From positions 186,001 through 250,000 of the forward strand of contig NZ_FOLY01000004.1 in the NCBI RefSeq assembly GCF_900112585.1: a DNA stretch of 64,000 bases, in the 5' to 3' direction. Position 1 is the stretch's first letter. Each line of letters begins with the position of its first letter. This document shows, one piece after another, positions 46,001-64,000 of the stretch. The notes under the pieces were generated by a model. The model saw only the letters and a program-made list of their open reading frames with translations, had not been told where the DNA came from and made no database searches. This stretch comes from Kushneria avicenniae (lineage in GTDB: Bacteria; Pseudomonadota; Gammaproteobacteria; Pseudomonadales; Halomonadaceae). Position numbers and translations under genes: made by a program.

Positions 46001-46357
46001 CTTGGTAAGCGCATCGCGAACATACACGGCTGGCAACGAACCGGTCGGCGCATCTCCGAACAGGTAGCCAACGCGCTGGGACACGTCGAAATACACCGCG
46101 AAGACGATATCGATTTTCTCTGGTCAGCAGGAAGCTACTCGAACAGGGTCACGTTCCGATCGAAACTGAATCGCTCAATTCGGGATATCTCTCGAGCTGA
46201 AATTGCCGAGCTCTATGATCGTCATGAGGCTTCACTTCTGAGTAGTCAAGACCAGGCTCTGGAGCTTGCTCGTCATGCAGGCATTTCGCGACTTTCAGCG
46301 GAAAACCGAGCCTATCTCGAAAGCTGCATTCTCTGGAGGTTTTCAAAGCATGAATAA
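42962..46357 (+). CDS. Giant helicase-nuclease, C-terminal frame (SF1 helicase, Vsr-like nuclease, DUF3320)
   Basis: 1131-residue frame completing the preceding half. Helicase motifs: DEAS (Walker B, 494-497), VGDPKQLPPT (III), WHYRSRDESLI (IV), IQGDERDVMLFS (V) and RLNVAVTRARQELHIF (VI). A restriction-endonuclease-like domain of Vsr/DUF559 type comes next, with GIECDG (Glu839, Asp841) and a Lys/Trp segment (LENLGWTILRIWSTDWF). A hydrophilic linker leads to a C-terminal DUF3320 domain (LGKRIANIHGWQRTGRRI). All catalytic motifs look intact, so only the frameshift threatens function. ATG 42962 abuts GGGGAG; reinitiation there is conceivable. It ends the insertion at the rpiB terminator. Confidence 0.85.
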   Translation: MPPFRLSFPNKDAHDSNSYARLRGIAESLGRCHEIIEERQPLPLIQADDWSFAWQAELLEQTAVMASATHELSDAAEGLAHQSGLGWSGTGAPEQIDILQQLAEISATGEDVSWCLSRDMAEIQHQAQELRDLLDQYHSAIGRASARYPMERLEDIPLDKLDESWRLAQAKIWPLAFFAKSSVRKLLQTYVESGQADPDRDIAAMRDARRLQSEIMDNVLQQCPAADGVNTDIDRLMNWVAQAGSLKAILDALAPTVSDQTRWETARLSLAQRAQGDLRRAVIHFSQKHSKWDSCANAFAQASQSDPEKLSLSELSEGLDRILEYKDHLSDWTRWISVRLQADAAGLAPLVEAIEEGRLKGDVEVAFVSAYAAWWLPLAIDAQPPLRGFSHWAHEDTIKRFKELDDRATEMAANQVLNRIQHGLPAQDAVPRRSELGTLRHQLTLQRPSMPIRTLISEMPDSFTRLAPCVLMSPLSVAQYLPAGQAAFDVVIFDEASQITTWDAIGAIARGRQAIIVGDPKQLPPTNFFGRSDDGDEDMPEAERDLASILDEVASAGIPTQQLDWHYRSRDESLIAFSNWHYYDGRLVTFPSPTTASEAVTLHQVDGVYGRGQGRTNDAEARAIVHKTVRRLSEWLTWPEEDRLTLGIITFNIQQQSLILDLLDEERRQNPDLEWFFEDAREEPVIVKNLENIQGDERDVMLFSITFGPDHAGRLSMAFGALNSDGGEKRLNVAVTRARQELHIFASIRADQIDLTRTKATGVKHLKAFLDFAARGPIALPAQDEGSLGSVENVFEGAIKAAIEAKGWELRPQIGVSGFRIDLGVVHPDHAGVYMAGIECDGATYHGSATARDRDKIRQAVLENLGWTILRIWSTDWFRNPGMVADRIHKMLVEHLETDRSRRAAEKTTPELTDQEESTTDCTTHTEPESGVTPHSLANDQASEVMKKEGSPTSETPVFAKSVSSEHFAKSAATGLDQPVPDPVQFYHQDYIPTLELLVANIVEHEGPIPLGLLGKRIANIHGWQRTGRRISEQVANALGHVEIHREDDIDFLWSAGSYSNRVTFRSKLNRSIRDISRAEIAELYDRHEASLLSSQDQALELARHAGISRLSAENRAYLESCILWRFSKHE

Positions 46358-46383
46358 ACACTAAAGTTTTCTTTTGTATTATC

Positions 46384-46411
46384 AAAAAAAAGCCCGCCCA
46401 TGGGCGGGCCT
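46384..46411 (-). terminator. rpiB operon terminator
   Basis: GCCCGCCC/GGGCGGGC stem followed on the minus strand by eight T. It lies downstream of rpiB and marks the right edge of the helicase insertion. Confidence 0.88.
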
Positions 46412-46450
46412 TGCCATTCAGGAATGCCCCATCCTTTCCACGTGATGCCC

Positions 46451-46897
46451 CTACCCGTCGTTTTCCATGGCGTACAGCTTTTCCACGCGCCGACGAAATT
46501 CTTCGTCCGTGGAAAACTCGGCATCCAGGTAGGCTTTGATCAGATCGTTGGCCAGCCAGGGGCCGACGATCTGTGCCCCGATGCACATCACGTTGACGTC
46601 GTCATGTTCGACACATTGATGGGCCGAGTGGATATCGTGGCACACCGCTGCGCGAATGCCCCTGACCTTGTTGGCGGCAATGGCAGCCCCCACGCCGGTG
46701 CCACACACCATCAGCCCTCGGGAGGCATCGCCACTCGTCACTTTGCTCGTCAGTGCTTTCGCAATGTCGGGAAAATCCACCGGGACGTCGTCATACGAGC
46801 CCACGTCGATCACCTCATGCCCAAGCGATTCCACAAAGGCCACCACTGACGCCTTGAGCCGATGGCCTGCGTGGTCCGAGCCAATCACTATCTTCAT
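46451..46897 (-). CDS. rpiB: RpiB/LacAB-family sugar-phosphate isomerase
   Basis: 148 residues. IGSDHAGHRLK, the catalytic Cys in MVCGTGVG, IRAAVCHDIHSA and NVMCIGAQIVG define RpiB, which interconverts ribose-5-P and ribulose-5-P or related sugar phosphates. It is the last gene of a GntR-TRAP operon, 21 bases after dctM. This suggests a catabolic isomerase for the imported sugar acid or polyol rather than a housekeeping Rpi. Confidence 0.9.
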   Translation of the reverse strand: MKIVIGSDHAGHRLKASVVAFVESLGHEVIDVGSYDDVPVDFPDIAKALTSKVTSGDASRGLMVCGTGVGAAIAANKVRGIRAAVCHDIHSAHQCVEHDDVNVMCIGAQIVGPWLANDLIKAYLDAEFSTDEEFRRRVEKLYAMENDG

Positions 46898-46918
46898 TGG
46901 TTTACTCCTGGGGTTTGT

Positions 46919-48193
46919 TTAGCGAAGCATACCGGGCAGCCAGAGCACCAGATCCGAGGCAAACGTGATGATCGCCAGGGTGGTCAGCAGCGGTATATAG
47001 AAAGGAAGCAGTGCCCAAAGCAGCTGACGCAGGGAAATTCTGGCAATGGAGGCAATCAAGTACAGGGAAAGCCCCATGGGCGGTGTCAAAAGGCCGATCA
47101 TCAGATTGAAGATCGCCACGATGCCCAGATGCACGGGGTCCACCCCCGCCAGCACCATGGGCGGTGCGATCACGGGAACGACCAGCAGCGTGGCCGTCGT
47201 GGAATCCAGAAACATGCCGACCACAAAGAAAATCAGATTGGCGATCAACAGCAGCATCAACGGGTCCTTCGAGACCTGAAGTATCCAGCCGGCGAAGGCC
47301 TGCGGAATCTGTTCAACGGCCAGAATCCAGCCAAACAGCGAGGCGGCGGCCACAATGATCAGGATAGCGCTAGTGCTGCGCAGGGTAACCATCATGGCGC
47401 TCCAGAGGTGCGCCCAGGTCAATTCCCGATACACCAGTCCACTGATCAACAGGACGTAGCCTGCCGTCACCGCTGCGGCTTCTGTCGGCGTAAACAGGCC
47501 ACTCATCATCCCGGCGATCATGAGGACCGGTGCCAGAAGTGCCGGCAGTGCCGGCATCAGCGACGCAGTGATCTCGCCCAGAGTGGGTCGGCGTGGCGCC
47601 CGCGGCATATTATGACGCAGCGCCAGAATGGCCGCCGTGATCATCAGCAGCGCAATACAGATCAGGGCCGGAACGATGCCCGCAATCAACAGCTGCACGA
47701 TGGAGACGCTGGTCACCGAGCCATAGACGATCAACGGAATGCTGGGCGGAAAGATGGGGCCCACCACCGCCGAAGAAGCCGTGATGGCACCGGCAAATGG
47801 CGCTGAAAATCCGCGCTTGCGCATGGCCTCGATCTCGATCTTGCCCAGCCCGCCGACATCGGCCAGCGCCGCCCCGGACATGCCTGAAAAGATCAGGCTG
47901 GAGAAGATATTCACCTGAGCCAGCCCGCCCGGTACGCGTCCGACCAGCGTGTCAGCAAACCGGAAGATACGCTCCGTGACGCCGGCCAGATTCATGATGT
48001 TGCCCACAAAGATGAAAATCGGCACGGCGACCAGCGGAAAGCTGTCGAGCGCGTAGGTGATGCGCTGAGCCAATAACCCACTGGGAAAGCCTTCGATCAG
48101 GACATAGCCAATGGAGGGAATCAGAATGGAATAAACGACCGGAAAACCGAGAACGAACAGGGCCAGAAAGCCAATGATCAAGGCAATACCCAT
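46919..48193 (-). CDS. dctM: TRAP transporter large permease (DctM)
   Basis: 424 residues, many hydrophobic segments, with the DctM family blocks GFPVVYSILIPSIGYV, GFSAPFAGAITASSAVVGPIFPPSIPLIVYGSVTSVSI and PPMGLSLYLIASIA. It forms the sodium-coupled channel of a TRAP system with the small permease (nine-base gap) and the binding protein. Confidence 0.93.
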   Translation of the reverse strand: MGIALIIGFLALFVLGFPVVYSILIPSIGYVLIEGFPSGLLAQRITYALDSFPLVAVPIFIFVGNIMNLAGVTERIFRFADTLVGRVPGGLAQVNIFSSLIFSGMSGAALADVGGLGKIEIEAMRKRGFSAPFAGAITASSAVVGPIFPPSIPLIVYGSVTSVSIVQLLIAGIVPALICIALLMITAAILALRHNMPRAPRRPTLGEITASLMPALPALLAPVLMIAGMMSGLFTPTEAAAVTAGYVLLISGLVYRELTWAHLWSAMMVTLRSTSAILIIVAAASLFGWILAVEQIPQAFAGWILQVSKDPLMLLLIANLIFFVVGMFLDSTTATLLVVPVIAPPMVLAGVDPVHLGIVAIFNLMIGLLTPPMGLSLYLIASIARISLRQLLWALLPFYIPLLTTLAIITFASDLVLWLPGMLR

Positions 48194-48202
48194 GACTCCC
48201 CC

Positions 48203-48670
48203 TTATTGGTTGGGTCCGACTTCCGAGGCAGGCGGGTGAACACCGTGAACCAGGTGCAGCAGGCACGCGCCACCAAATCCCAGCAGGGTCGACCCCAGAA
48301 ACAGCCAGAAGGGAATCTTGAGCGTCGGTGTGGTATTGCCAAGATTGGTCTGCACCGTCATGAATGTGGCATAGGCGATAAAACCGCTGGTCAGGATCGC
48401 GCAGACCACAATCAACAGTTTCAACGGTTTGCGTAGGGCCGTCGGCAGTGATTCGCGCAGCTCGGTCATGACAATGTTCTCGCCGTTGTCGACCACCAGC
48501 GGATAGGCCATGAACACCAGGCAGACCAGCAGAAAGCGGGTCAACTCTTCCGCCCCCACCATCGGGCTGACGAAGACTTCCCGTAAAACGACCTGGAGTA
48601 GTGGCACCAGCACGATGCCCGCCAGCAACAGGGCACATATTCCTTCCAGCAGCCGCCTGATCAGAGGCAT
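48203..48670 (-). CDS. dctQ: TRAP transporter small permease (DctQ)
   Basis: 155 residues with four hydrophobic helices. LLQVVLREVFVSPMVGAEELTRFLLVCLVFMAYPLVVDNGENI contains the EE...R...W/F pattern of DctQ subunits. It lies between the binding-protein and large-permease genes. Confidence 0.9.
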   Translation of the reverse strand: MPLIRRLLEGICALLLAGIVLVPLLQVVLREVFVSPMVGAEELTRFLLVCLVFMAYPLVVDNGENIVMTELRESLPTALRKPLKLLIVVCAILTSGFIAYATFMTVQTNLGNTTPTLKIPFWLFLGSTLLGFGGACLLHLVHGVHPPASEVGPNQ

Positions 48671-48781
48671 GTCCGCTTCTCCTTTAGAGACGATTTCACC
48701 GCCTGCCGTGCGCCACTAATTTGTTGGCGACGCTTTCATCGTCAGCCGTGAGCCACGGATATGGCGGCTCACGGCGATCGA

Positions 48782-49768
48782 TTACTCGACCTCGGCGATC
48801 ATCTCGATATAGGGCTTGAAGTTCGGGAAGTCCTTGTCGATCTGCGCCCGCACCTGGTCACGGAAGGCAGCCACATCCAGGCCATCTTCTTCGCCAAAAA
48901 CGGTCATGCCCTTGTCCTGCAAGGTCTGGATCAGCTCGCTCTCTGATGCCTGCGCCCACTGCAGCGACTGCTCGGCCTTGTCATCAAGCACTGCTTCGAT
49001 GGCCTGTCGGTCCGATTCCTCCAGCGACTGCCACTTGCGCTCGTTCACAAAGACCGCCAGCACCGAATCCATGTGGCCGGTAAGCGACACATGCGACTGG
49101 ACTTCGTAGAGCTGATTGGCATTGATCATGGTCAGCGGGTTTTCCTGGCCGACCACCAGCCCGGTCATCAGGGCCGTGGGCAGTTCCGAGACGGCGACCG
49201 GTGTCGGGGTGGCCCCAAACCCCTTGACCATGGAGACCCAGAGATCCAGCGGCACGGCGCGGAAGGGCTTTTTGGAGAGATCATCCGGAGACTTGACTGC
49301 AAAATTCGAGGAGATATGGCGCTTGCCGCGATAAATTCTGCCGATGATTCTTACGCCGCCCTTGTCGATGAGCTGCTGGTTGATTTTTTGTACCGCCGGC
49401 GAATCCGGCGCGGTCGCGTGCAGAGCATGCTCCGCATCACGGTAGATATAAGGCGCATTGAACACCGCGGCTTCCGGCACGATTCGCGCCAGCGAGGCGA
49501 AATCGTGATGCCCCATATCAATGGAGCCCATGCGGACGCCATCCACCATTTCTGCCACGCCGCCCAACTGGCTCGCAGGAAACACCTGGACGTTGATGTT
49601 GCCATCGGTGGCGTCCTGAATGGCCTGTGCCGCCTCCGAGGCGTAACGGGTCTGTAGATCGCCTTCTGCCCCCACGTGGGCGTAACGCAGGGTTTCAGCC
49701 GAGGCCGGGGTACTCAGCCCAAGCGCCAGTACTGCCGTTGCCAATCCCATGCCGATTTTCGTGAACAT
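48782..49768 (-). CDS. dctP: TRAP transporter substrate-binding protein (DctP)
   Basis: 328 residues. A signal peptide (cleavage ASA-E, residue 24) is followed by a DctP fold: LRYAHVGAEGDLQTRYA, GGVAEMVDGVRMGSIDMGHHD, and the substrate-clamp region KKPFRAVPLDLWVSMVKGFGATPTPV with its Arg, then TALMTGLVVGQENPL. It should bind a carboxylate or sugar acid in the periplasm. ATG 49768 has a GTGAGG site; the frame is open upstream but overlaps the GntR gene. It starts seven bases after the regulator gene. Confidence 0.92.
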   Translation of the reverse strand: MFTKIGMGLATAVLALGLSTPASAETLRYAHVGAEGDLQTRYASEAAQAIQDATDGNINVQVFPASQLGGVAEMVDGVRMGSIDMGHHDFASLARIVPEAAVFNAPYIYRDAEHALHATAPDSPAVQKINQQLIDKGGVRIIGRIYRGKRHISSNFAVKSPDDLSKKPFRAVPLDLWVSMVKGFGATPTPVAVSELPTALMTGLVVGQENPLTMINANQLYEVQSHVSLTGHMDSVLAVFVNERKWQSLEESDRQAIEAVLDDKAEQSLQWAQASESELIQTLQDKGMTVFGEEDGLDVAAFRDQVRAQIDKDFPNFKPYIEMIAEVE

Positions 49769-49775
49769 GCGCGCC

Positions 49776-50546
49776 TCACTTTTCATTATCGATTGAGCAA
49801 GTGCTGGAGCCACTCTTTCGATGAGCGGCAATGATGCTTCGCCGACGCAGTTCATCACCGATGGCGAAGTGTTCGCGGAGCCGTTGATGCGCCATCTCGC
49901 CATCGCCTTCAACGATGGCGAGAAAGACCTGGCGGTGGGAGTCGATATGGCTTTCGACGATCTCGGGCGCATTGGCCGTTGTTCTGCGCCGCTCAACGTG
50001 GCTTTTTAAAAGCATCGTGGAGATAGCGTGATAGAGCGCGATCAACGTTTTGCTGTGACTCGCCTCCACAATGGCGATATGAAACTCGTAGTCCGAAAGA
50101 CCGCCACGCTCCGGGTCATCCACGGTCTGCGTCAATTGTGTAAAACATGTCTCGATGCGGGAAATATCGGCATCCGTGGCTCTGTCACAGGCCAGCCGAA
50201 TGGCCTGACATTCAATGGCGATACGCGCCTGCATCACGTCATCCAGCGCGCTTTTTTCCTGAGTCAGGTACAGGGTGAAAAAGTCCGACAACATTCCGAA
50301 ATTGGCACGCGCCACGAAGGCGCCCTTGCCGTGGCGAATATCCAGCACGCCCAGCATGTCCAGCGAACGCATCACTTCGCGCAGCAGCGGCCGCCCTACC
50401 CCCAGCGACAGTGCCAGCTCCCGCTCACTGGGCAATCGATCACCGGGGGCCAGAGCACCTGACAGAATCTGATCTCGGAAATAACCAAACACCTTTTCAG
50501 CACCGCGTGGTATTTCGCTGCCTTCTTCGCCTGCCCGCTCAGTCAT
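49776..50546 (-). CDS. GntR-family (FadR/FCD) regulator of the TRAP operon
   Basis: 256 residues. An N-terminal winged HTH (ILSGALAPGDRLPSERELALSLGVGRPLLREVMRSLDMLGVL) and a C-terminal FCD domain with the metal or ligand histidines (YEFHIAIVEAS, HIDSHRQVFLAI, REHFAIGDE). ATG 50546 has a GGAG site. It is the first gene of the operon with dctP-Q-M and rpiB, so it probably represses its own operon until a sugar-acid ligand is present. A TGGTATTACCA palindrome just upstream is the likely operator. Confidence 0.91.
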   Translation of the reverse strand: MTERAGEEGSEIPRGAEKVFGYFRDQILSGALAPGDRLPSERELALSLGVGRPLLREVMRSLDMLGVLDIRHGKGAFVARANFGMLSDFFTLYLTQEKSALDDVMQARIAIECQAIRLACDRATDADISRIETCFTQLTQTVDDPERGGLSDYEFHIAIVEASHSKTLIALYHAISTMLLKSHVERRRTTANAPEIVESHIDSHRQVFLAIVEGDGEMAHQRLREHFAIGDELRRRSIIAAHRKSGSSTCSIDNEK

Positions 50547-50556
50547 TCTATTCTCC

Positions 50557-50571
50557 ACTGGTATTACCAGT
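50557..50571. promoter_or_regulatory. GntR/FadR-type operator
   Basis: ACTGGTATTACCAGT is a perfect 7-1-7 palindrome containing the TGGTnnnACCA core of FadR-subfamily operators. It overlaps the translation-initiation region of the operon's GntR gene, as expected for autoregulation. Confidence 0.75.
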
Positions 50572-50940
50572 TAACATGCTTCTTTAATCAAAAAATTACT
50601 TTTAAAAGGGCTATAGATAAAAGCTTTAAACAAAAATCGCCCCCTTTCGACCATGAAATAAAACTAGGGCGATTCGTTTATGGCCACAATTGGACTTTAG
50701 TCATCACAACTGGTCTTACCTCTTTGGCATGTTTTTGATGCCAAAGAGCGCCGAGCCCTGGTCTCGACACTCCTTCCCACATAGCGCGGGCTATCGATTT
50801 TGGCGCATGTGGCCGATCTGAGCGGGGAGTTTCGGCGTGACGCTACGCCTATCGGGGTCGCAGGGAGAGAAATCGGCAATGGAGAGCAGACGTTCGAAAT
50901 CGTCACCGATGCGTCCCCGACGTTCAGGGTCCAGGCCCTG
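50572..50940. other. Gap between the GntR operon and a LysR gene
   Basis: AT-rich promoter DNA for the GntR operon (about 50572-50690), then GC-richer DNA. On the plus strand, from about 50732, it reads as protein-like sequence (FDAKERRALVSTLLP, stop TAG at 50782, then GVAGREIGNGEQTFEIVTDA). This may be a decayed gene; no family was recognised. Confidence 0.3.
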
Positions 50941-51834
50941 CTAATCGGCGCCGGTCTGGCGCTGCAGTGTCGCGCAAAAGTTCCGGAAGGTTGGTGTATC
51001 GTAGCCCGCGCGCCAGACCAGCGTCGTCATCACCCGGCCAAGCGGGATCGGCTGCAGCGATTCGACAGGCGCCAGTGTCCGGTAAACGCTCTCCGGTAAT
51101 ACCGTGGCACAGCGACCGGTACAGGCGAGCGCGACCATCACGTGATACGACGGAGATTCCTGGATGTGCCAGTCCGCCGACCCGGGAATCTGCAGCGCCT
51201 CTTCTGCCAGCCGCCGGTAGGTACATCCCTGAGGAAATGCGGCAAGCGTGCGCACCGAGACGTCATCCAGCCCCGGAGCCCCCTGGTTGACTGCGGGATG
51301 CAACAGCAGCAGCGACTCCTCCCAGACATCGAGAGTTTCCAGCCCCAGACGCTCTTTGTTCTCCGGGAACGTGCCATCCATGGACGACGGCGGAAACGCC
51401 AGAAACGCAGCATCAAGCCTGCCCGCACGAACGTCATCGATCAGTTGCAGGGAGGGGCTGGTACGCAGCTCGAGCCTGACGTCGGGGAAGTCGGCATGAA
51501 ACGACGCCAGAAATGCCGGCAGCCGGCTCGCGGCGGTGGCTTCCATGCTGCCAAGCCGGATCGTACCGGGCGCCCTTCCGCCAGAGACGACGTGCAGTGA
51601 TTCCTCTCGCAGGCTGAGCAACCGCTCGGCATAGCCGAGAAACACCTCGCCCGTCTCGGAGAGTGCAAAACGCTTGCCCGTTCTCACCAACAGTGCCGCA
51701 CCGACGCTCTCTTCGAGTTTCTGCAGCCGCGTGGTCACGTTGGAGGGACTCTTGCCCAGCCGCCTGGCCGCACCAGTAACGCTCAGTTCCTTCGCCACGC
51801 AGACGAAGACCCGCAGGGATTCAAAATCTTCCAT
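50941..51834 (-). CDS. LysR-family transcriptional regulator (downstream of PNPOx-like gene)
   Basis: 297 residues. The HTH (FVCVAKELSVTGAARRLGKSPSNVTTRLQKLEE) and the effector domain (PGTIRLGSMEATAASRLPAFL) match the common activator type. ATG 51834 gives the family start; it follows the PNPOx-like gene by four bases on the same strand, so the two are co-transcribed. The effector is unknown. Confidence 0.88.
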   Translation of the reverse strand: MEDFESLRVFVCVAKELSVTGAARRLGKSPSNVTTRLQKLEESVGAALLVRTGKRFALSETGEVFLGYAERLLSLREESLHVVSGGRAPGTIRLGSMEATAASRLPAFLASFHADFPDVRLELRTSPSLQLIDDVRAGRLDAAFLAFPPSSMDGTFPENKERLGLETLDVWEESLLLLHPAVNQGAPGLDDVSVRTLAAFPQGCTYRRLAEEALQIPGSADWHIQESPSYHVMVALACTGRCATVLPESVYRTLAPVESLQPIPLGRVMTTLVWRAGYDTPTFRNFCATLQRQTGAD

Positions 51835-51838
51835 GGCG

Positions 51839-52357
51839 TCAGGCCAGCGCCTTTCTGAGGGCATCGAGCGAGACGGCCGTGCGCATCTTCAGCGTGGTCG
51901 GTTCAAGCTCTTTCTCGGAAAGGCAGTTCAACCAGGCCTGCTGCGGTTCTGCACAGTAAAAGCGCTTGATCCCCTCCCCCAGAAAATCCGTCAGATCGAC
52001 GCTCTCTCCGGGGTAGAGCCGCTCGAAAGCGCGACGGGCCTCTTGTGGCGCCGTCACCTCTCTTGCCACGCCCTGTAGATAAAGACACATCAGATTGTTG
52101 GTGCCACGCGCCCGCGTCGAATCATAGAAGGTGAGAAACACGGCCCCGTTGGCCGCGATATTTTGCGAGTGCTCCGCCGCAGTCCACGAGGACCAGTAGA
52201 AGTTGAGATGGGCATCCGGCAACGCCGTCACCGGGGTATTCCACGGCACGTCATCTCGTGAGGTCGCGATATTGGCGTAAAGATTGTGCCTGAGAATTTC
52301 GGCCGCACGCTCGGCCAGGGCCGGCTCGCTCGCAAAGGCTGTCGGAACATCCACCAT
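51839..52357 (-). CDS. Pyridoxamine 5'-phosphate oxidase-like flavin-binding protein
   Basis: 172 residues with the split-barrel flavin-binding fold: LYANIATSRDDVPWNTPV, LNFYWSSWTAAEHSQNIAANGAVFLTFYDS, LYLQGVAREV. It lacks the full PNPOx substrate signature, so it is more likely a general FMN- or F420-type split-barrel oxidoreductase. ATG 52357 follows GAGGAG. First gene of a pair with a LysR regulator. Confidence 0.8.
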   Translation of the reverse strand: MVDVPTAFASEPALAERAAEILRHNLYANIATSRDDVPWNTPVTALPDAHLNFYWSSWTAAEHSQNIAANGAVFLTFYDSTRARGTNNLMCLYLQGVAREVTAPQEARRAFERLYPGESVDLTDFLGEGIKRFYCAEPQQAWLNCLSEKELEPTTLKMRTAVSLDALRKALA

Positions 52358-52629
52358 GAATATCTCCTCCCCTCCGGATCCATGCATGATATTTTCAAAG
52401 TCAGAATAAAATTAAAATTTATTCCTTAAAATAGAATATTCGCATTACTCCTGAGGCTCAAGCGCCGGAGCGATGACGAGTGACTCGTCAGGCAATACGT
52501 CGGCAGATCCTGATGGCGTATTTCGCACGCAGGGAGGGACACCGCTTTCATGGACGACTACCGCACCATCGCCCTGCCACCACTGGATACTGCCCGCGCG
52601 GTGCGACAACGCATCGACGCTCGGTCACG

Positions 52630-52836
52630 GAGAGGCCTTACTTCGTCATTGCCGATGACCGCCTGAACACCGGCAAGAGCGGCGGGTTTGAAAATGAAGG
52701 CGAGGATATTGAAGTACTGGAACTGCCGCTGAGTGAGGCACTGGAGATGATTCGCACCGGGGAGATTGTCGATGGCAAGACCATTATGCTGTTGCAGCAC
52801 GCGGCGCTGCTGGTGGCGACGGTTAGTGAGGCTTAA
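52630..52836 (+). pseudogene. C-terminal remnant of a NudK-like NUDIX hydrolase
   Basis: The segment FENEGEDIEVLELPLSEAL and EMIRTGEIVDGKTIMLLQ matches the C-terminus of GDP-mannose pyrophosphatase NudK, but the N-terminal half with the NUDIX box is absent. The frame is open back to about 52480, but that sequence does not resemble NUDIX. It lies at the left edge of the AT-rich island. Confidence 0.7.
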
Positions 52837-52989
52837 GATTTTTTTCTTCGATCATCGCTGGCTCATCCGTATGTATGGTGAGCCAGCAAGTGTCATGGCT
52901 TGTGAAAAACAGCGATCCATTTGCCGTCTTCCTTCGTCATTACATCATTGACGATGTCGACATTTGCGTTGCGATTTTCTCTTACCAAC

Positions 52990-54174
52990 CTATTTTTTGC
53001 ATAGAAATGAAATCTGCGTCTCATATAAATTTACCAATCTTTGTAATTCTTGTTTCGACGCCGCCACTTTTCGGTTAGACATAACCCTTTTCTCATAAAA
53101 ACCTTCTTTTACGCTTTTTATTTCATCCATTTCTTTATTTGAAAAGACCCCCTCAAATATAAAGTTTTTAGTGTCAAGTATCGGCAGTATTTGGCCATTA
53201 TTTTCTGATATAAATATTTTTTTAAGCTCAAAAATATTTGAAAACTCAATTAGCTTTTTTTCAGTTGTAGCGATATAAGAGATGTTAACTTCATCATATG
53301 GCTTTGTGTATAGAAGCATTTCAGGCAAACGCATCAAAAACAAATCCCAAGCTGTTGATTTCAAATTCTTTATTGCTTTCAAAAATTTTGTATTTTTTTG
53401 AACTCCTAAAAAACTGCCTGCCAAGCCTGAAAAATAGTATACCGACAACTCTAACTCCCTCGCCATCGATATACCTAGTTCGTCAAGCAAAAAAACAGAA
53501 AACTCTTCTACTTTTTCAACAATATTCCTCATGCTTAAACTAGCGTTATAATTGTGAATTAAAACCATTTTCATCAGGCAAACATAGATAAGCATAATAT
53601 TTTCATAATCATTTTCTTTGTTGTTATTATAATAATTTTCTGCCCATCTTAAAGCGCACCCCCTCAAATCACCTTCATTGTACTGATACTTATAAATCTC
53701 AACCACTTCTTCTTTTAGCTCTATTACACCTCTGCTACAGAAAACATCTTCATCCATGCAATGTAACTTCAAAAGTGAAAATAGTTTTTCTCCTGCTTTC
53801 TCAATAAAGAAAGCTTTTTCAGTTTTAAAGCAGTTTTCTGCCAAATAAAACACTGGATTATAATCGCATCTAGCTTTAGACAAGTAAGTTAAAAACAAAT
53901 GAACCGCTTTAAATCTACTAGGCTTTAATTTTTCAGGACAAGCTGTATAGCTATGTAGATAATCGACTAAATGCGAATCTAAAATTATTGTTTGCAATAA
54001 CTTAACATCCAATCTTCCTTTATCCAAAAAGCTTTTATTAATTAAGAAAGGACGTCGGCCATTATACTGATCGATTATCGCTATGCTTTCTTCTCCACCA
54101 TTAAAGAAAATAGACTCCTTACAGAAAGGGTTTTCATATGGAGACTCTGAAATTTCTATACGTGAACGATCCAA
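52990..54174 (-). CDS. Unrecognised protein paired with the HNH nuclease gene
   Basis: 394 residues, very AT-rich codon use unlike its neighbours, consistent with transfer. No family is recognised. It is a soluble, Lys/Glu/Asn-rich, mainly helical protein without signal peptide or membrane segments. The N-terminus reads like a mixed beta region (ESIFFNGGEESIAIIDQYNGRRPFLI). The middle is helical with repeated aromatic residues, and the tail is a basic helix. TTG 54174 is chosen because AAGGAG lies six bases upstream; a TTG at 54180 directly abuts it. It follows the HNH gene by 130 bases on the same strand, so the two probably form one module. Confidence 0.72.
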   Translation of the reverse strand: MDRSRIEISESPYENPFCKESIFFNGGEESIAIIDQYNGRRPFLINKSFLDKGRLDVKLLQTIILDSHLVDYLHSYTACPEKLKPSRFKAVHLFLTYLSKARCDYNPVFYLAENCFKTEKAFFIEKAGEKLFSLLKLHCMDEDVFCSRGVIELKEEVVEIYKYQYNEGDLRGCALRWAENYYNNNKENDYENIMLIYVCLMKMVLIHNYNASLSMRNIVEKVEEFSVFLLDELGISMARELELSVYYFSGLAGSFLGVQKNTKFLKAIKNLKSTAWDLFLMRLPEMLLYTKPYDEVNISYIATTEKKLIEFSNIFELKKIFISENNGQILPILDTKNFIFEGVFSNKEMDEIKSVKEGFYEKRVMSNRKVAASKQELQRLVNLYETQISFLCKK

Positions 54175-54304
54175 CTGCAACTCCTTTCAATCTGAAAAAT
54201 TTAAAAAACAACTACCCGATCCAAAAGCGCTTTTTATCACTTGCAAGCATTAATCAAAAACCATAGCAAAAAAAGCAGCTTTAAATATTTTTTGAATAGC
54301 TAAC

Positions 54305-55879
54305 TTAATTTTTAACTGATTGATTACAATATGGATGCGTCAACTGAAAATTTTCAAAGTTTCCCAATCCCCCATCACGCACTCTAACAATATGGTCATA
54401 AGATACCGATTTTTCTACATCCAAATAGCCTCTACATATTGGACACTTCATAGCGTTAGCTAGTGCAGCACCTATAAAAACTTTACTCTTTACTTCATCA
54501 GAAATAGATGACTCTTTTCTTTTAAAATCTCCAGCAATAATTTTCCCATCTAGCTCAGATATTAGAACCAAATCTTCAGCCTCTAATTCTTTGCCTTTAT
54601 GTATACTTTCGATTATACGCTCAAGAAAAGTATGGTAGCGACTAGCTCTATCTTTACTTCGATGCCTTTGCACAATAGCCGCTATTAGCTCTTTATTTTC
54701 AATCAAAACCTTTTCAAGCTTTTCCCTAACCTCAGTTAACTTTACAAAAAATCTAGAATTATTATTTATTATTTTATAGCTTATTAACGATATAGTGCCC
54801 AGAAACATTGGTATGGAGTGTCTACCGGAAGGCCCATAAAAGTATATTGCAGGATGTAAACCTAAACTTCCGCCATCATTGCCAGTAATACGGCCTATAA
54901 GTTTTTTAGCTTTTCTAAGGATTTCGATGGTTGAATTGCCATCCTCATCTTGGCTAAAGCTAGCTATAGCAGGTATAGCTTCTTGTTGTCTCCTACTGGA
55001 TATAAGCAAAAAATCTATTAGAATCTGCGCAGCATTTCTTACTCCTTTAGAACCACCCAAAGGAAGGTCTAAAGTCTTAATTGGCCTTTGAAATTCAGGA
55101 TTAAAAAGTAATTTATGAAGTTTGAAAGCCTCATCTTCTATAATGTCAGCTTGTTGGCTGTCGAATTTCGACCAATAGCGATGCCCTTTACCAGCTCTTA
55201 TTATAGCTCTAGCTGCTATAGCTATAGGCTTTTTCCGATTCTTTAAAAGCAACTCTTCTATATCGTCTAAAGGAGTACCTTTCATATTTATATTAAAAAA
55301 AGATGTTTCGGCTTTATCAACATCTCCTTTAACCCATTGAACAGGAAGTCCTCTAGTAGTTATAGTAGATAATCGTTGCCTTTGTTCGGATGTAATATTG
55401 TCATCATCTTCCAAAAGCCCTTTATAATAACTCCATGAGCCCACCCTTCTATTTATTGTCTTCCTTGCTTGTTCAGCAGCTTTTCTTTGTTCATTAGAAA
55501 CATTGTGTCCAAAAAGTCTATGTGAAATTGAGCCATCACCATAGTCATCTTCCATCCATGCTTTTATAACGCTTAGCCTGTGGCCGCCATCTATGACAAA
55601 AAGATAAGAAGAAGATTTCCACAAAATAACTGAAGGAATAAGATCTCCATTTACGTAACATTCTAATAAGGAGGCGACTTGGTCAGGAGTCCAGTGATTG
55701 GTCTCTCTTTGAAAGTCAGGCTTCCTAAGCAAAGCAGCAATAGGGCTACCTGACGAAAGCTCTCTAGCAGGGATTGTATTAAAAGTTTCAAACGATGCTG
55801 AATCATTTCCTTCGGAAGCAAAATCTGCTCTTTTGATCATTGCATCTAAATTAACGAGGTTAGACTTTGACGCTACCAA
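54305..55879 (-). CDS. ParB/DUF262-like protein with C-terminal HNH endonuclease
   Basis: 524 residues. An N-terminal ParB/DUF262-like domain has PDFQRETNHWTPDQVASLLECY and the hallmark VIDGGHRLSVIKAW (analogous to DGQQR in GmrSD/DUF262 proteins), followed by NINMKGTPLDDIEE. The helical middle links to a C-terminal HNH nuclease: a CPIC zinc knuckle, SYDHIVRVRDGG catalytic His, and NFQLTHPYCNQ. Such nucleotide-binding plus HNH fusions occur in restriction systems against phage DNA (GmrSD-like). TTG start at 55879 with a strong GGAGGGG site. Strongly AT-rich compared with flanks, located just beyond the guaA terminator. Confidence 0.85.
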   Translation of the reverse strand: MVASKSNLVNLDAMIKRADFASEGNDSASFETFNTIPARELSSGSPIAALLRKPDFQRETNHWTPDQVASLLECYVNGDLIPSVILWKSSSYLFVIDGGHRLSVIKAWMEDDYGDGSISHRLFGHNVSNEQRKAAEQARKTINRRVGSWSYYKGLLEDDDNITSEQRQRLSTITTRGLPVQWVKGDVDKAETSFFNINMKGTPLDDIEELLLKNRKKPIAIAARAIIRAGKGHRYWSKFDSQQADIIEDEAFKLHKLLFNPEFQRPIKTLDLPLGGSKGVRNAAQILIDFLLISSRRQQEAIPAIASFSQDEDGNSTIEILRKAKKLIGRITGNDGGSLGLHPAIYFYGPSGRHSIPMFLGTISLISYKIINNNSRFFVKLTEVREKLEKVLIENKELIAAIVQRHRSKDRASRYHTFLERIIESIHKGKELEAEDLVLISELDGKIIAGDFKRKESSISDEVKSKVFIGAALANAMKCPICRGYLDVEKSVSYDHIVRVRDGGLGNFENFQLTHPYCNQSVKN

Positions 55880-56010
55880 TTTCCCCTCCTACCTTTAAGC
55901 ATTTTAAAAAAAACCTTATAATTAATTCAGAAGATTTTATATTAAATATTAATTATGTCTACTTTTATCACTGACATCTTTCCAGTTATTCCACCGTTCA
56001 GGTTGACAAT

Positions 56011-56035
56011 AAAAAGCCCGCCAATTGGCGGGCTT
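56011..56035 (-). terminator. guaA terminator
   Basis: GCCCGCCAATTGGCGGGC hairpin followed on the minus strand by TTTTT. It separates guaA from the AT-rich island. Confidence 0.88.
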
Positions 56036-56061
56036 TGTCGTTCAATCAGACGTCTACAACA

Positions 56062-57636
56062 TCACTCCCACTCGATCGTCGCGGGCGGCTTGCTGCTGAC
56101 GTCATAGGTCACGCGCGACACGCCGCTGATCTCGTTGATGATGCGACCGGAGACCTTCTCCAGCAGCTCATAGGGCAGGTGCGCCCAGCGGGCGGTCATG
56201 AAGTCGATGGTTTCGACCGCGCGCAGGGCAATGACCCACTCATAGCGGCGGCCATCCCCCACTACCCCGACGGACTTGACCGGCAGGAACACGGCGAAGG
56301 CCTGGCTGGTCTTGTGATACCAGTCCGCGTTGTGCAGCTCTTCGATGAAGATGGCGTCGGCTTCTCGCAGGATATCAGCGTATTCCTTTTTGACTTCACC
56401 GAGAATGCGCACGCCCAGGCCCGGCCCGGGGAACGGGTGACGGTAGACCATGTCATACGGCAGGCCGAGTTCGAGACCGAGCTTGCGCACTTCGTCCTTG
56501 AACAGTTCGCGCAGCGGTTCGACCAGCTTGAGCTTCATGGTTTCCGGCAGGCCGCCAACGTTGTGGTGCGACTTGATCACATGTGCCTTGCCGGTTTTGC
56601 TGGCCGCGGATTCGATCACGTCCGGGTAGATGGTGCCCTGGGCGAGGAAATCGACGCCGTCGATTTTGGCGGCTTCACGGTCGAACACGTCAATGAAGGT
56701 GTTGCCGATCAGCTTGCGCTTCTGCTCCGGATCATCGATGCCCTTGAGCCGATCGAGGAACTCGTCTTCGGCATCGACGCGGATGACGCGCACGCCCATG
56801 TGCTGGGAGAAGGTGTCCATGACCTGGGCGCCTTCGTCCTTGCGCAGCAGACCGTTGTCGACGAATACGCAGGTGAGCTGATCGCCAATGGCCTTGTGCA
56901 ACAGCGCGGCGACCACGGAGGAATCCACCCCGCCGGAGAGGCCGAGCAGCACATGACGGTCGCCGACCTGGGCGCGGACACGCTCGGCGAGGTCCTCGAT
57001 GATCTTGGCCGGGGTCCAGAGGCGTTCACACTGGCAGATGTCCAGCACGAAGCGCTCGAGAATGCGCAGGCCCTGGGTGGTATGGGTCACTTCCGGATGG
57101 AACTGCACCGCGTAGAGACGCTTTTCGGCCCAGCTCATGGCGGCGATCGGGCAGCTCGGCGTTGAGGCGGTGATCTCGAAGGCTTCCGGCACCCGGGCGA
57201 CCTTGTCGCCGTGGCTCATCCAGACATCCAGCAGGGCATCGCCGCGTTCGCCGATGTGGTCCTTGATGCCGCCGAGCAGGTCATCTTCTGCCGAGACACT
57301 GATCTGGGCGTAGCCGAACTCGCGCTTGTCGGAGCCTTCGGTGGCGCCCCCCAGCTGGGCGGCCATAGTCTGCATGCCGTAGCAGATACCCAATACCGGC
57401 AGACCCATGTCGAACACGCACTCGGGCGCACGCGGAGAGTCCAGTTCGGCCACCGATTCCGGCCCGCCGGAGAGGATGATGCCGTTGGGGTTGTACTCGC
57501 GGATCTCTTCTTCGGTGATGTCGAAGGCGCGCACTTCCGAGTAGACCCCGATCTCACGCACGCGGCGGGCGATCAGCTGGGTGTACTGGGAGCCAAAATC
57601 AAGAATCAGGATCTTGTGGGCGTGGATATCGGTCAT
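56062..57636 (-). CDS. guaA: GMP synthase (glutamine-hydrolysing)
   Basis: 524 residues (E. coli 525). A class I glutamine amidotransferase domain ([15 protein letters not shown], catalytic Cys in [19 protein letters not shown]) is followed by the ATP-pyrophosphatase domain ([17 protein letters not shown]) and the dimerisation domain ([15 protein letters not shown], ending in IEWE). It converts XMP to GMP. ATG 57636 matches the family start. It is the second gene of guaBA, 156 bases after guaB. Confidence 0.97.
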
Positions 57637-57792
57637 GGTATCTCTCTGGTGCAGCGAGGATATAAATAACAAGCGGGAAGCTTTCGCCTCCCGCTCTTCA
57701 AACTGGATGACCCCATAATATCGGGGCACATGCCCTGCCCGCGCCGCGGCGCCAGATTGATGCCATTGATCAGGAACAGGCAGGGCATGGCA

Positions 57793-60824
<3,032 letters not shown>

Positions 60825-60881
60825 AGGCGGGCGTCTTCGTCGACGCCTGCCTCGTCCCCGACCCGCACTTATTCTGACGTT

Positions 60882-61694
60882 TCAGACACGCGCCGGGCGC
60901 TGCTCCGGATCACTCGGCTGCACCAGATGGATTCGCGTGCCCCCTTCGCCCTCTCCGAGCCCCGGCTTGAGCCGCTGCTCGCCGTCGTAGTGGCCGCCGT
61001 TCTGGCGCCGGTAGGCGATCGGCGCGTCGCTGAACAGTCCCGCCAGGCGCTGCTCAAGGTCCGCCGCCACCTGCTGCCAGCCGGCCTCGTCCAGGCGGTC
61101 GCTCGAATAGACCGGAAACGGCGGCATGACCGTCAGCCCGGGATAGAACAGCGTGCCGTGATGAATCGGCCACAGAATCTCCTCCAGGCTGCCGTTGACC
61201 CCGCGCTCGCTATAGTACGGTGCGCGCCCGCCGATCGGCACCATCAGCATGGCGCGGCGCCCGGCCAGCATGCCTTCGCCGTAGCGGTCGCCCCAGCGCT
61301 CGCCGCCATGCTCCCCCACGCCATAGGCGAAGCCAAAGGCAAACACTCGATCGACCCAGCCCTTGAGGATCGCCGGCATGCCGAACCACCACAGCGGAAA
61401 GCTGAACAGCACCGCATCGGCCCACAGGAGCTTCTGCTGCTCGGCGGCAATATCCATCGTCTGCGTGTCGGTGGCGTAGGCGTGACGAGACTCGGCGATA
61501 TAGCGCAGCCGCTCGGCATCACACGTATCGGTGAAATCCTGGCGGTCAGCGAGTGTCTTCCAGCGCATGGCGTAGAGGTCGGAGACCTGCACTTCGTGCC
61601 CCCGGGCCTCGAGGGTGGTCACTGCCAGATCCTTCAGCGCACTGGTCAGCGACTGCGGTTCGGGGTGAGCGTGGACGATCAGGATATGAGACAT
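60882..61694 (-). CDS. NAD(P)H dehydrogenase (quinone), flavodoxin-2 fold
   Basis: 270 residues. ILIVHAHPEPQSLTSALKDLA is the FMN-phosphate-binding start, ADAVLFSFPLWWFGMPAILKGWVDRVF the flavin/dimer segment, and MLMVPIGGRAPYYSERG the third loop, as in NQO1/YwrO/MdaB-type quinone reductases. It probably performs two-electron reduction of quinones or related electrophiles. It is divergent from a LysR gene across 108 bases, and the pair is bracketed by the xseA end and its partial copy. Confidence 0.88.
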   Translation of the reverse strand: MSHILIVHAHPEPQSLTSALKDLAVTTLEARGHEVQVSDLYAMRWKTLADRQDFTDTCDAERLRYIAESRHAYATDTQTMDIAAEQQKLLWADAVLFSFPLWWFGMPAILKGWVDRVFAFGFAYGVGEHGGERWGDRYGEGMLAGRRAMLMVPIGGRAPYYSERGVNGSLEEILWPIHHGTLFYPGLTVMPPFPVYSSDRLDEAGWQQVAADLEQRLAGLFSDAPIAYRRQNGGHYDGEQRLKPGLGEGEGGTRIHLVQPSDPEQRPARV

Positions 61695-61802
61695 GGTCGG
61701 CTCCTTGTGGGTGGTGCCCCGCCAATGGCGGGATCGGCCACGATCCTGACGCTAGTTCTGGTATCTTTGAAATCGGATATTTTATGCTCAGGTATAAAAT
61801 GA

Positions 61803-62747
61803 ATGGATATCGAGCGGCTGGACTTCAATCTGCTGGTGACCCTGGACACCCTGCTGGCGGAGCGTAACGTCAGCCGCACCGCCCAACGCCTGCACCTGAG
61901 CCAGCCGGCGATCTCCACTCGTCTGACCCGGCTGCGTGAGCTGCTGGGTGACCCGCTGCTGCTGCCCGCCCCGCGCGGCATGATCCCGACCCAGCGCGCG
62001 CTGGAGCTGCAGGCCCCGCTGCACGCCGCGCTCGAGAACGTGCGCCAGGTGGTGGCCGACACCCGCCCCTTCGACCCGACCACCGCCCGCGGCACGGTGA
62101 CCCTCGCCGCCAGCGACTATGTGCAGTACGCGGTGCTGCTGCCGCTGGCTTTGGCCCTGACCCGCGAGGCGCCCGGGCTGACGATCGCCTGGCGCACGCT
62201 GGACCACGCCACGCTGGCGGCGCAGATGGCCCGTGGTGAAATTGACCTGGCGCTGACGATGCCGGAGATGGCGCCGGAGGCCCTGCGCATGCGAAAGCTC
62301 TACCATGAGCACTACGTGGCCATCGCCCGCGCCGGGCATCCCGGGGTGTGCGACCCGCTCGATCTCGACATTTTCTGCACGCTGGAGCACGTCATCGTCT
62401 CGCCCCAGGGCGGCGGCTTTCACGGACCGGTGGACGAGGCTCTGGCAGCGATCGGCCGGCGCCGCCGTGTGGCGCTCTCGGCGCCAGGGTTTCTGGTCGT
62501 GCCGGAGATCGTGGCGCGCAGTGAGCTGCTCGCCCTGGTGCCCTCGCGAGTCGTCGCCGGGCGAGACGAACAGCTACAGCAGCTGGTGCCACCGCTGATC
62601 GTGCCCGGCTTCGACATGGCCCTGCTGTGGCATGAGCGCACCACCACCCACCCGATGCAGCGCTGGCTACGTCAGCGCCTCACAGTGCTGGTTCAGGCAG
62701 ACTCGGGACAGCCCGCCACGTCGGCTGGGCCAGATGTAGAGACGTAG
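61803..62747 (+). CDS. LysR-family regulator (divergent from quinone reductase gene)
   Basis: 314 residues. The NodD/SyrM-like HTH (DFNLLVTLDTLLAERNVSRTAQRLHLSQPAISTRLTRLRELLGDPLLL) and effector domain (GTVTLAASDYVQYAVLLPL) are clear. It likely controls the adjacent quinone reductase through the shared intergenic region. The last 15 residues are a hydrophilic tail. Confidence 0.9.
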   Translation: MDIERLDFNLLVTLDTLLAERNVSRTAQRLHLSQPAISTRLTRLRELLGDPLLLPAPRGMIPTQRALELQAPLHAALENVRQVVADTRPFDPTTARGTVTLAASDYVQYAVLLPLALALTREAPGLTIAWRTLDHATLAAQMARGEIDLALTMPEMAPEALRMRKLYHEHYVAIARAGHPGVCDPLDLDIFCTLEHVIVSPQGGGFHGPVDEALAAIGRRRRVALSAPGFLVVPEIVARSELLALVPSRVVAGRDEQLQQLVPPLIVPGFDMALLWHERTTTHPMQRWLRQRLTVLVQADSGQPATSAGPDVET

Positions 62748-62794
62748 AAAGTGAGGCGAAAAGAGACGCTGGCACCGAATGTGCTCAGCTTGAA

Positions 62795-62971
62795 GGCCGC
62801 GCGCGCGATCTCAACGCGGTCAGCCGGCTGGCGGTGCCGGACCAGGCAATTCTGGCATCCTCGTCGGGCGTGGTGCGCCGCTCACAGGACACCACGCCCG
62901 GCGGCGAGGGTCTGACGGCCGTCCGGGCGACGGCCGTCTGAAGGTGGAAGTGAAGCGGCGGTTGAAGCGCT
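62795..62971 (+). pseudogene. Decayed partial copy of the xseA 3' end
   Basis: About 177 bases follow xseA 60640-60824 closely. Shared stretches include CTCAACGCGGT, TCGGGCGTGGTGCGCCGCTCA and GGTGGAAGTGAAGCG. The reading frame has a six-base deletion near the GYAIL segment and later a frame change, so it is not functional. Confidence 0.85.
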
Positions 62972-62996
62972 GCTCCCTCATCTGCCGAGACTCTGG

Positions 62997-63109
62997 TTAC
63001 CGATCGGTAATCGGTCACGATATCGACCGGGACACCAGTCCAATAATTACCGATCGGTAATTATCGAGTGGGAAAAGTTTCTTGCTGCTATATTATTACC
63101 GAACGGTAA
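62997..63109. promoter_or_regulatory. Three HipB-type operators before hipBA
   Basis: Palindromes TTACCGATCGGTAA at 62997-63010 and 63047-63060, and TTACCGAACGGTAA at 63096-63109. Their starts are 50 and 49 bases apart, about five helical turns, so bound dimers would lie on one face of the DNA. The last site ends 14 bases before the hipB start, next to the GAGGAGG ribosome site. Confidence 0.82.
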
Positions 63110-63123
63110 TCCGAGGAGGTCTC

Positions 63124-63381
63124 ATGACCAGCAAAGACGTCTCATCGCACCACTGGCCTCGCAGCATTCGCTCCACTGCGGACATAGGCGACGTCATCAG
63201 GCAAATGAGGCAACAGCAGAGCCTGCTACAGATGGACCTTGCCGGGCTGGCGGGCACGGGCAATCGCTTCATTGTTGACCTTGAGCGCGGCAAACCGACG
63301 CTTCAAATGCAAAAGGTACTCGATGTGCTGGATCTGATGGGCTTGGAGGTCACGATCAGCCCCAGGAGCAAGCCGCAATGA
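63124..63381 (+). CDS. hipB: HipB-like antitoxin/repressor
   Basis: 85-residue XRE helix-turn-helix protein (IGDVIRQMRQQQSLLQMDLAGLAGTGNRFIVDLERGKPTLQMQKVLDVLDLMGLEV), the HipB pattern of binding operator and toxin together. ATG 63124 follows GAGGAGG. The stop overlaps the hipA start (ATGA). Three upstream palindromes are its likely operators. Confidence 0.88.
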   Translation: MTSKDVSSHHWPRSIRSTADIGDVIRQMRQQQSLLQMDLAGLAGTGNRFIVDLERGKPTLQMQKVLDVLDLMGLEVTISPRSKPQ

Positions 63382-64000
63382 GCTCACGCTGCCTTGATCT
63401 TTATGCCCTTGATCAGCAGGTAGGCACGCTGTTCGATGAACATCCCCTGCGCTTTTGCTATTCACGCTCCTGGATCGACAGTCATGGGCGTGAACTGGCG
63501 CCCGGTCTTCCCACAGACTGCCAGACTCATCAGGGCGAAAGTGTCGAAAGCTTCTTCGAAAATCTACTCCCTGAGGGGCATCTACGCCAACTGCTGGAGA
63601 CACAGCGGCAGACAACGACCCTGTTCGGATTGCTTGACGCGGTCGGTGGCGATACGGCCAGCGGTTTCTCGCTGCAACCCGCCGGCCAACCTCCCGAGCC
63701 ACACCACTATCAAAAAACGACATGGCGAGAGATCGCGGACAACCTTGCAGGCAACAGGGCCGATACTGTCGCCACGGAGATAAAGGATGCACGCCTTTCG
63801 CTGGCCGGCGCGCAGTCAAAGTCACTGCTGATGGTCCGGGACGGCACCCCCTGTCTGCCGTTGGGATCGTCACCGTCGAGCCATATCCTGAAACCGGATA
63901 TCCGCGCCTTTGAAGGCGTATGGGCCTCGGCATTCAACGAGACATTTTGTCAGCGCCTGGCGGCGAAGCTGGACCTGGGTGCGGCGGAGGCGACCTATCA
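63378..64000 (+). CDS. hipA: HipA-like serine/threonine kinase toxin, N-terminal part (truncated by window edge)
   Basis: The first 207 residues are visible. They include the HipA N-terminal domain motif SVESFFENLLPEG, GLLDAVGGDTASGFSL and the LSLAGAQSKSLL segment, then SSHILKPD, the start of the kinase core. HipA kinases inactivate a translation factor (GltX in E. coli) to cause growth arrest. The catalytic core lies beyond the edge. ATG 63378 sits in a four-base overlap with hipB. Confidence 0.88.
   Translation, partial: MSSRCLDLYALDQQVGTLFDEHPLRFCYSRSWIDSHGRELAPGLPTDCQTHQGESVESFFENLLPEGHLRQLLETQRQTTTLFGLLDAVGGDTASGFSLQPAGQPPEPHHYQKTTWREIADNLAGNRADTVATEIKDARLSLAGAQSKSLLMVRDGTPCLPLGSSPSSHILKPDIRAFEGVWASAFNETFCQRLAAKLDLGAAEATY

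Follow-up and report, generated by a model that had tools for sequence, protein, structure and literature searches.

Do two genes that sit side by side in a small block of AT-rich DNA make up one defence system, or do they merely share an address? The question is raised by a 64,000-nucleotide stretch of the Kushneria avicenniae genome (contig NZ_FOLY01000004.1; hereafter the window), in which a block next to a gene that we take from its sequence to be guaA contains two long open reading frames (ORFs), both on the minus strand, which we call gene A and gene B. An initial annotation had noted an AT-rich block with two same-strand genes inside GC-rich flanks, and this description holds, as the GC content is 0.341 across 52965–56008 compared with 0.577 on the left (45000–52900) and 0.642 on the right (56009–63500). 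The annotation had further proposed that A and B together form a new restriction or abortive system. We find instead that A is probably a self-sufficient single-chain restriction nuclease resembling GmrSD, BrxU and SspE, with B a separate piece of cargo of the same guaA hotspot.

The adjacency of homologues had been set beforehand as the refuting test of the pairing, and homologues of A and B were never found adjacent. With the eight proteins of the B family as tblastn queries (E 0.01), no B-family gene was detected in any of 83 A loci, and an ORF-level phmmer search agreed in finding no B relative there. The 83 loci consist of a set of 78 (63 genome, nine viral, two phage, three plasmid and one sibling locus) and five from Escherichia coli. 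They are not all independent, as L071 repeats L029, L072–L074 repeat one another (all were kept), and the islands of the five E. coli loci are near-copies. Nor do all of them leave room for a neighbour, as at least 1.5 kb of sequence is available downstream of A in 49 of the 63 genome loci and upstream in 57. A was likewise not found in the loci of B relatives, where the contig of the relative in genome G213 reaches only 442 bases upstream. The two proteins show no similarity to each other (hhalign probability 0.2%), and Pfam finds no DUF262 domain in B, which together with the 0/83 adjacency sets B apart from the second proteins of GrwAB/TgvAB-type systems. The codon usage of A and B is correlated (r 0.72); A is, however, equally like a B relative from another genome (0.74), so this likeness reflects AT-richness. 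The two-gene module was rejected on adjacency and on the lack of A–B similarity, and the proposed new defence system probably falls with it. B is probably not the partner of A and would be independent cargo, and a pairing of the two that is specific to this lineage is unlikely.

The other part of the initial proposal, that A fuses a DUF262 domain to a C-terminal HNH nuclease, was borne out by Pfam (Table 1), and the three motifs quoted for it (VIDGGHRLS, CPIC and DHIVRVRDGG) are all present. Gene A starts at a TTG behind a AGGAGGGG ribosome site, and its frame is conserved over the whole length across phyla, from which we conclude that the gene is real. The match to GmrSD_N (PF03235) scores 49.8 bits against a cut-off of 33.2, so that A has the N-terminal DUF262 domain that characterizes GmrSD; DUF1524 (PF07510) is absent from its Pfam matches at E up to 1. 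In the alignment of A (A2, 56 sequences), the N-terminal domain contains the invariant residues Q57-R58 (QR), D97, G98, H100, R101, and F194 and N198 (FxxxN), and the HNH domain contains the invariant residues C479, C482, D495, H496, N510, H515 and C518. They match the QR, DGQQR-like and FxxxN motifs and the HNH site known from GmrSD-like enzymes (PMC12137116, PMC4619093). The alignment and tree were made without partial or split relatives, with the cut L048 added to the tree, and the near-copies L071, L073 and L074 as well as the window's own L001/L065 were excluded from alignments and neighbour clustering. The C-x2-C and H-x2-C pairs of the HNH domain look like zinc ligands. A DUF262 nuclease in the wide sense combines QR, FxxxN and a His-Me/HNH nuclease in one chain, and A contains all of these. 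Both DUF1524 and the exact DGQQR motif were also looked for and are lacking, and A is therefore best described as a variant beside GmrSD and not as a strict member.

The predicted structure of A (mean predicted local distance difference test score, pLDDT, 83.4) was compared with known structures, disregarding matches with Z below 5 except in the HNH part. BrxU is the top match (Z 6.8, root-mean-square deviation (RMSD) 10.9 over 320, 12% identity), tied with those that follow it. SspE gives Z 6.2 (RMSD 5.3 over 157 residues), the N-domains of Noc and ParB give Z about 6 and RMSD about 3 (for Noc, 6.3 and 3.2 over 94), and DndI gives Z 5.6 (RMSD 7.4 over 211 residues). The HNH part superimposes on 4h9d with an RMSD of 1.7 over 47 residues (Z 4.8). 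BrxU and SspE thus lead with values that are close together and inside the background range, and the modelled fold appears consistent with the BrxU/SspE class, a placement that is supported but not proven.

Relatives of A are widely distributed. A search with short peptide patterns, which makes the count a lower bound, identified 63 loci from several phyla in the species-genome collection (42–74% identity, some partial), and nine relatives are found in viral contigs. Phages KL3 and Pf8 also encode relatives, KL3 gp44 being 59.8% identical, and phrog_29172 is a full-length homologue (E 2e-233). Plasmids contain them as well, with Acinetobacter plasmid matches at 23–24% identity among the matches listed; these and the plasmid matches H7, H8 and H10 were left out of the locus analysis. 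Among 201 genomes of the same taxonomic family, the only other match is in the sibling genome G663 (42% identity). In E. coli, 53 of 5426 complete genomes (~1%), ATCC 8739 included, have a relative of A, which NCBI labels as ‘GmrSD restriction endonuclease domain-containing protein’ or as a DUF262-domain protein. In ATCC 8739 the relative is WP_021293132.1, and PMC4437046 lists a classical gmrSD gene, EcolC_3721, for the same strain. In the five E. coli regions examined, the relative shares 64.6% identity with A over 522 residues and is adjoined by a tyrosine integrase in every case. In three of the five (L139, L140 and L142), the island with its integrase lies between two annotated thiamine pyrophosphate (TPP) riboswitches beside thiM, and their presence on both sides suggests that riboswitch DNA is the integration site. 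A distant relative (33%) on a Burkholderia glumae plasmid (L125) sits beside an annotated DncV-like nucleotidyltransferase, ThiF and Mov34, a set that resembles a cyclic-oligonucleotide-based antiphage signalling system (CBASS). Literature searches, in which subscription papers are mostly outside the coverage, turned up no characterized member of the A family.

Some copies of A lie next to a classical restriction cassette. In phage KL3, gp44 comes immediately after the genes for an EcoRII methyltransferase, Vsr and an EcoRII-C nuclease, and these three KL3 proteins served as queries (E 1e-6) for the A loci. At least one of the three genes was found in 11 of 78 loci and none in 67; at least two were found in nine, made up of 8/63 genome loci and KL3, which matches by construction. 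Two of the matches are weak, an EcoRII-C piece in L027 (31% over 122 residues) and the methyltransferase in L058 (26%). In L033, L037 and L121, A is located inside or directly behind the methyltransferase–Vsr–EcoRII-C cassette, and in the first two it stands within the run of cassette genes, almost without a gap to Vsr. Of 200 genomes from the phylum of the window, 11 contain EcoRII-C at any position, and 6 of the 63 genome loci have it no more than 7 kb from A, which suggests a proximity far above chance, with the control drawn from one phylum and the A loci from several. When eight rows of the A tree are labelled as EcoRII-associated (L058, with two matches of which one is weak, and L034 and L041, with one each, are unlabelled), the label requires five changes, three of them forced by well-supported branches, with gains and losses indistinguishable. 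The window copy belongs to a starred clade of 13 rows, none of them labelled, in which only L034 has any cassette gene (the methyltransferase). It has no EcoRII cassette beside it, and a search of the genome to which the window belongs gave no EcoRII-C. In looking for a neighbour that would be the true partner of A, all neighbours within 4 kb were clustered, and the methyltransferase, Vsr and EcoRII-C groups were followed up; further groups that recur, among them transposases, integrases and regulators, have two to four members in most cases and were read by eye.

For gene B, our results agree with the initial annotation in that no recognized family accounts for it and that the protein has 394 residues when translated from its second in-frame TTG, which lies two codons in and is spaced better from AAAGGAG than the first start. 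B has no match in Pfam, NCBIfam or PHROGs, and its one PADLOC match is weak and short (Cas11e, E 0.012). The gene is nonetheless real, as a relative with 34–36% identity is present in G213, a genome from another family of the same order. The B family comprises eight proteins (alignment A3): B itself, the G213 relative, a paralogue in B's own genome together with its 73% relative in G058, and four plasmid copies from Enterobacter (two), Pantoea and Legionella fallonii. The paralogue and its G058 relative are more distant from B than the G213 relative is. All eight share an invariant W-D....R..E motif (W278, D279, R284 and E287), which is possibly the active site of an unnamed family, and the relatives also have a D in common at about residue 68, where the sequence is DSN-like. 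None of the seven relatives of B has a Pfam match above the cut-off or a PADLOC match, and a single-sequence structure model of B (pLDDT 34.8) is too poor for a fold search. Around the B relatives the gene content differs from locus to locus, with transposase genes, genes of toxin-antitoxin type and other accessory genes among the neighbours. On another contig, the paralogue (L068/L135) follows a DUF4145 gene at a distance of 83 bp within AT-rich sequence; the locus of its G058 relative has no DUF4145 match.

B is a rare accessory protein. It was counted in 3 of 293 genomes of the order, in 1 of 398 of the phylum (its own), in 2 of 369 of the class (its own, plus a questionable stretch of a 1611-residue frame) and in 1 of 48 of the family of G213 (G213 itself); a further set gave 0 of 274 in a search run without a positive control. 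No relatives were found among viral sequences, and phage records gave no match to the paralogue, P0005, which was the query there in place of B. The plasmid copies are the four matches to P0005, as P0001 and P0003 gave none, and E. coli has no DNA-level match to one of these plasmid copies. Perhaps B is a defence gene in its own right.

The setting of the two genes is that of foreign DNA inserted beside guaA (Table 1). The edges of the block, at ~52965 and ~56008, were placed by blastn alignment against nine sibling genomes of the same genus. All nine siblings align with the guaA side and four with the left side, and none of their fetched stretches matches the block itself. The gene remnant at the left edge is presumably NUDIX-like; Pfam gave no match for the ORF at 52480–52836. 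A scan of 52800–56100 for promoters and terminators returned no more sites than shuffled sequences did, and an Rfam search of 50000–58000 returned no match. Repeats flanking the block in the manner of attachment sites are short, imperfect and unconvincing within the window, no tRNA gene occurs in its 64 kb, and the ORF list shows no integrase in the block.

Table 1 Features of the AT-rich block and its surroundings (positions in the window)
Feature	Position	Strand	Details
Left edge, sequence common to 4/9 siblings	52619–52964	.	blastn to L108, L109, L111, L113
Gene remnant (3' part) at left edge	52619–52893		longer gene is a 198-residue ORF in sibling L108
Gene B, no known family	52990–54180	-	396 residues; 394 from second TTG (54174)
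A–B gap	54181–54304	.	124 bp, AT-rich
Gene A	54305–55879	-	524 residues; GmrSD_N/DUF262, helical linker, HNH
HNH nuclease domain (CxxC...DH...N...HxxC)	54314–54445	-	residues 479–522; Pfam PF01844, E 8.5e-5
GmrSD_N/DUF262 domain (ParB/Srx-like fold)	55238–55729	-	residues 51–214; Pfam E 5.9e-13
D97-G-G-H-R101 codons, counterpart of GmrSD DGQQR	55577–55591	-	D97, G98, H100, R101 invariant (n=56)
guaA terminator hairpin	56013–56036	-	right edge of block just left, near 56008
guaA (GMP synthase)	56062–57666	-	3' end is insertion hotspot

Across this genus, the 3' end of guaA acts as a hotspot for cargo. The gene is present in 10/10 same-genus genomes searched, and the genes at or within ~3 kb of its 3' end differ; defence-like genes lie at or near it in seven of nine siblings. 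Where the window has A and B, the siblings have a type I restriction system with PrrC (G257), a RelA/SpoT-type PDC-S33 gene (G660), a PDC-M66A-like gene (G659, E 1.2e-8), a PDC-M51B-like gene with low-GC neighbours (G036, E 3e-11), a dGTPase-like gene (G662) or a tyrosine integrase (G658), and no AT-rich cargo was recognized beside guaA in G661. The PDC labels denote PADLOC candidates and not proven systems. G663 and G176 have in common an intact gene for a ProA/DUF4011-like protein of 1951 residues, a label that follows from a blastn match to the ProA region of the window and from the family matches of the latter. In the window itself, a ProA/DUF4011-type anti-phage gene (NCBIfam antiphage_ProA, PADLOC PDC-S37) at 40509–46357 is split near 43.0 kb into two overlapping ORFs in different frames; its intact form of 1951 residues is the one that adjoins guaA in the two siblings. 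In G659 (L108), part of the guaA 3' end, terminator included, is present a second time less than 1 kb from the intact one, as integration at the guaA site would leave.

Three other explanations have to be weighed against a stand-alone nuclease with B as separate cargo. That A and B form a new lineage-specific restriction or abortive module, in which B would detect infection or hold A in check, is improbable. As partners would be, the two lie on the same strand, 124 bp apart, and are the sole genes of the block, and two-gene DUF262 systems are known, namely GrwAB and TgvAB (PMC12137116). However, no B-family gene turned up in the 83 A loci and no A in the B loci, the neighbours of B relatives are unrelated, the shared codon usage is uninformative, and B has no similarity to A, whereas GrwB bears a DUF262 domain of its own. 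Moreover, GmrSD occurs predominantly as fused single-chain enzymes (PMC4619093), which counts against the need for a partner. Several genomic settings of A do look like defence (the guaA hotspot, EcoRII cassettes, CBASS-type neighbours on one plasmid, and carriage by phages and plasmids); the pairing is not supported.

We give little credence to the idea that A chiefly serves EcoRII-type restriction-modification cassettes by adding a second layer of nuclease, with the window copy a solitary example. The loci with two or more cassette parts, the position of A within the run in L033 and L037 and the rarity of EcoRII-C in the phylum speak for it; the 67 loci with none of the three genes, the near absence of cassette genes from the window's clade and the failure to find EcoRII-C in the window's genome speak against it. 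A selfish or mobility-linked nuclease of the homing type, spreading itself or aiding island integration and having no part in defence, would explain the HNH domain, the integrase-like genes that adjoin A in E. coli and lie near L007 too, and the occurrence of relatives on phages and plasmids. The sites of A nevertheless vary (guaA, thiM, phages and plasmids), no integrase ORF was seen in the window block or, by eye, beside the G663 copy, the DUF262 motifs are strictly kept, and EcoRII or CBASS-type genes accompany some of the copies; we regard such a nuclease as quite unlikely.

The reading of A as a self-sufficient nuclease builds on its architecture, its invariant motifs, its wide distribution without B and the defence-type settings of some copies. 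Beyond the close arrangement of A and B, several points weigh against it. The upstream stretch of the G213 contig would reveal the end of an A gene at the spacing seen in the window, and not at a wider spacing. EcoRII neighbours are a minority of A loci, the modified-DNA trigger suggested for A is borrowed from its relatives, and the activity of every member of the A family is predicted. GmrSD has a DUF1524 nuclease (DHxxP) where A has a PF01844 zinc-type HNH domain (CxxC, DH, N, HxxC), and its DGQQR corresponds to DGGHR in A, with the D-G-x-x-R frame kept. The structural matches are modest, as a Z of 6.8 lies within the range that the tool states for models with no clear match, and Foldseek on the A model was not significant (best E 0.03). 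The class assignment of A therefore rests on Pfam and the motifs.

If A works as its relatives do, its N-terminal ParB/Srx-fold DUF262 domain would bind and hydrolyse nucleotide, and this step would allow the zinc-type HNH domain at the C-terminus to cleave or nick phage DNA that is foreign and probably carries chemical modifications. Nucleoside triphosphate (NTP) hydrolysis, DNA cleavage, a modified-DNA trigger and phage protection may all be expected of A by this analogy. More tentatively, and with our doubts outweighing our confidence, we hypothesize that A represents an uncharacterized phylum-crossing family of DUF262–zinc-HNH nucleases with a trigger of its own, mostly solitary, which in several lineages has become the second layer of an EcoRII operon and destroys hypermodified phage DNA that resists EcoRII, much as BrxU complements BREX. 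That A is repeatedly close to EcoRII cassettes suggests recruitment of DUF262 nucleases by classical restriction systems, possibly as a means against modified phages. The analysis thus removes a candidate two-gene defence system and puts in its place a testable DUF262 family with a different HNH module, and the hotspot at the guaA 3' end of the genus offers a place to look for defence genes.

DUF262 nucleases are already known as a class, and what is less usual in A is the PF01844 zinc-type HNH domain in place of DUF1524 and the association with EcoRII. The DUF262 domain of BrxU, SspE and GmrSD is an NTP-binding and NTP-hydrolysing unit that controls the nuclease, and what usually triggers these enzymes is modified DNA (PMC8565348, PMC10952713, PMC4437046). 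A would group with these three in its mode of action, with each of its catalytic steps predicted from theirs. GmrSD is like A in combining an N-terminal DUF262 domain, a helical linker and a C-terminal His-Me/HNH nuclease in one polypeptide; in its family DGQQR is described as near-invariant and is compared with DGQHR domains (PMC4619093). BrxU also joins DUF262 to a nuclease and acts alongside a further defence system, a role that A may have with EcoRII, whereas the nuclease of BrxU is of the DUF1524 type and the protein is located inside BREX. SspE and DndI share with A a DUF262-type NTPase domain that gates a nuclease, and they act with phosphorothioation genes. The full-length homologues phrog_29172 and KL3 gp44 are listed by PHROGs with function unknown, and gp44 lies behind an EcoRII cassette whereas the window copy does not. 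In GrwAB and TgvAB, DUF262 is again found with an HNH-type nuclease, and the GrwA motif set is comparable to that of A (QR, a DGQQR-like motif and FxxxN; PMC12137116). These are two-gene systems, however, in which the second protein bears DUF262, whereas B has none and is not similar to A.

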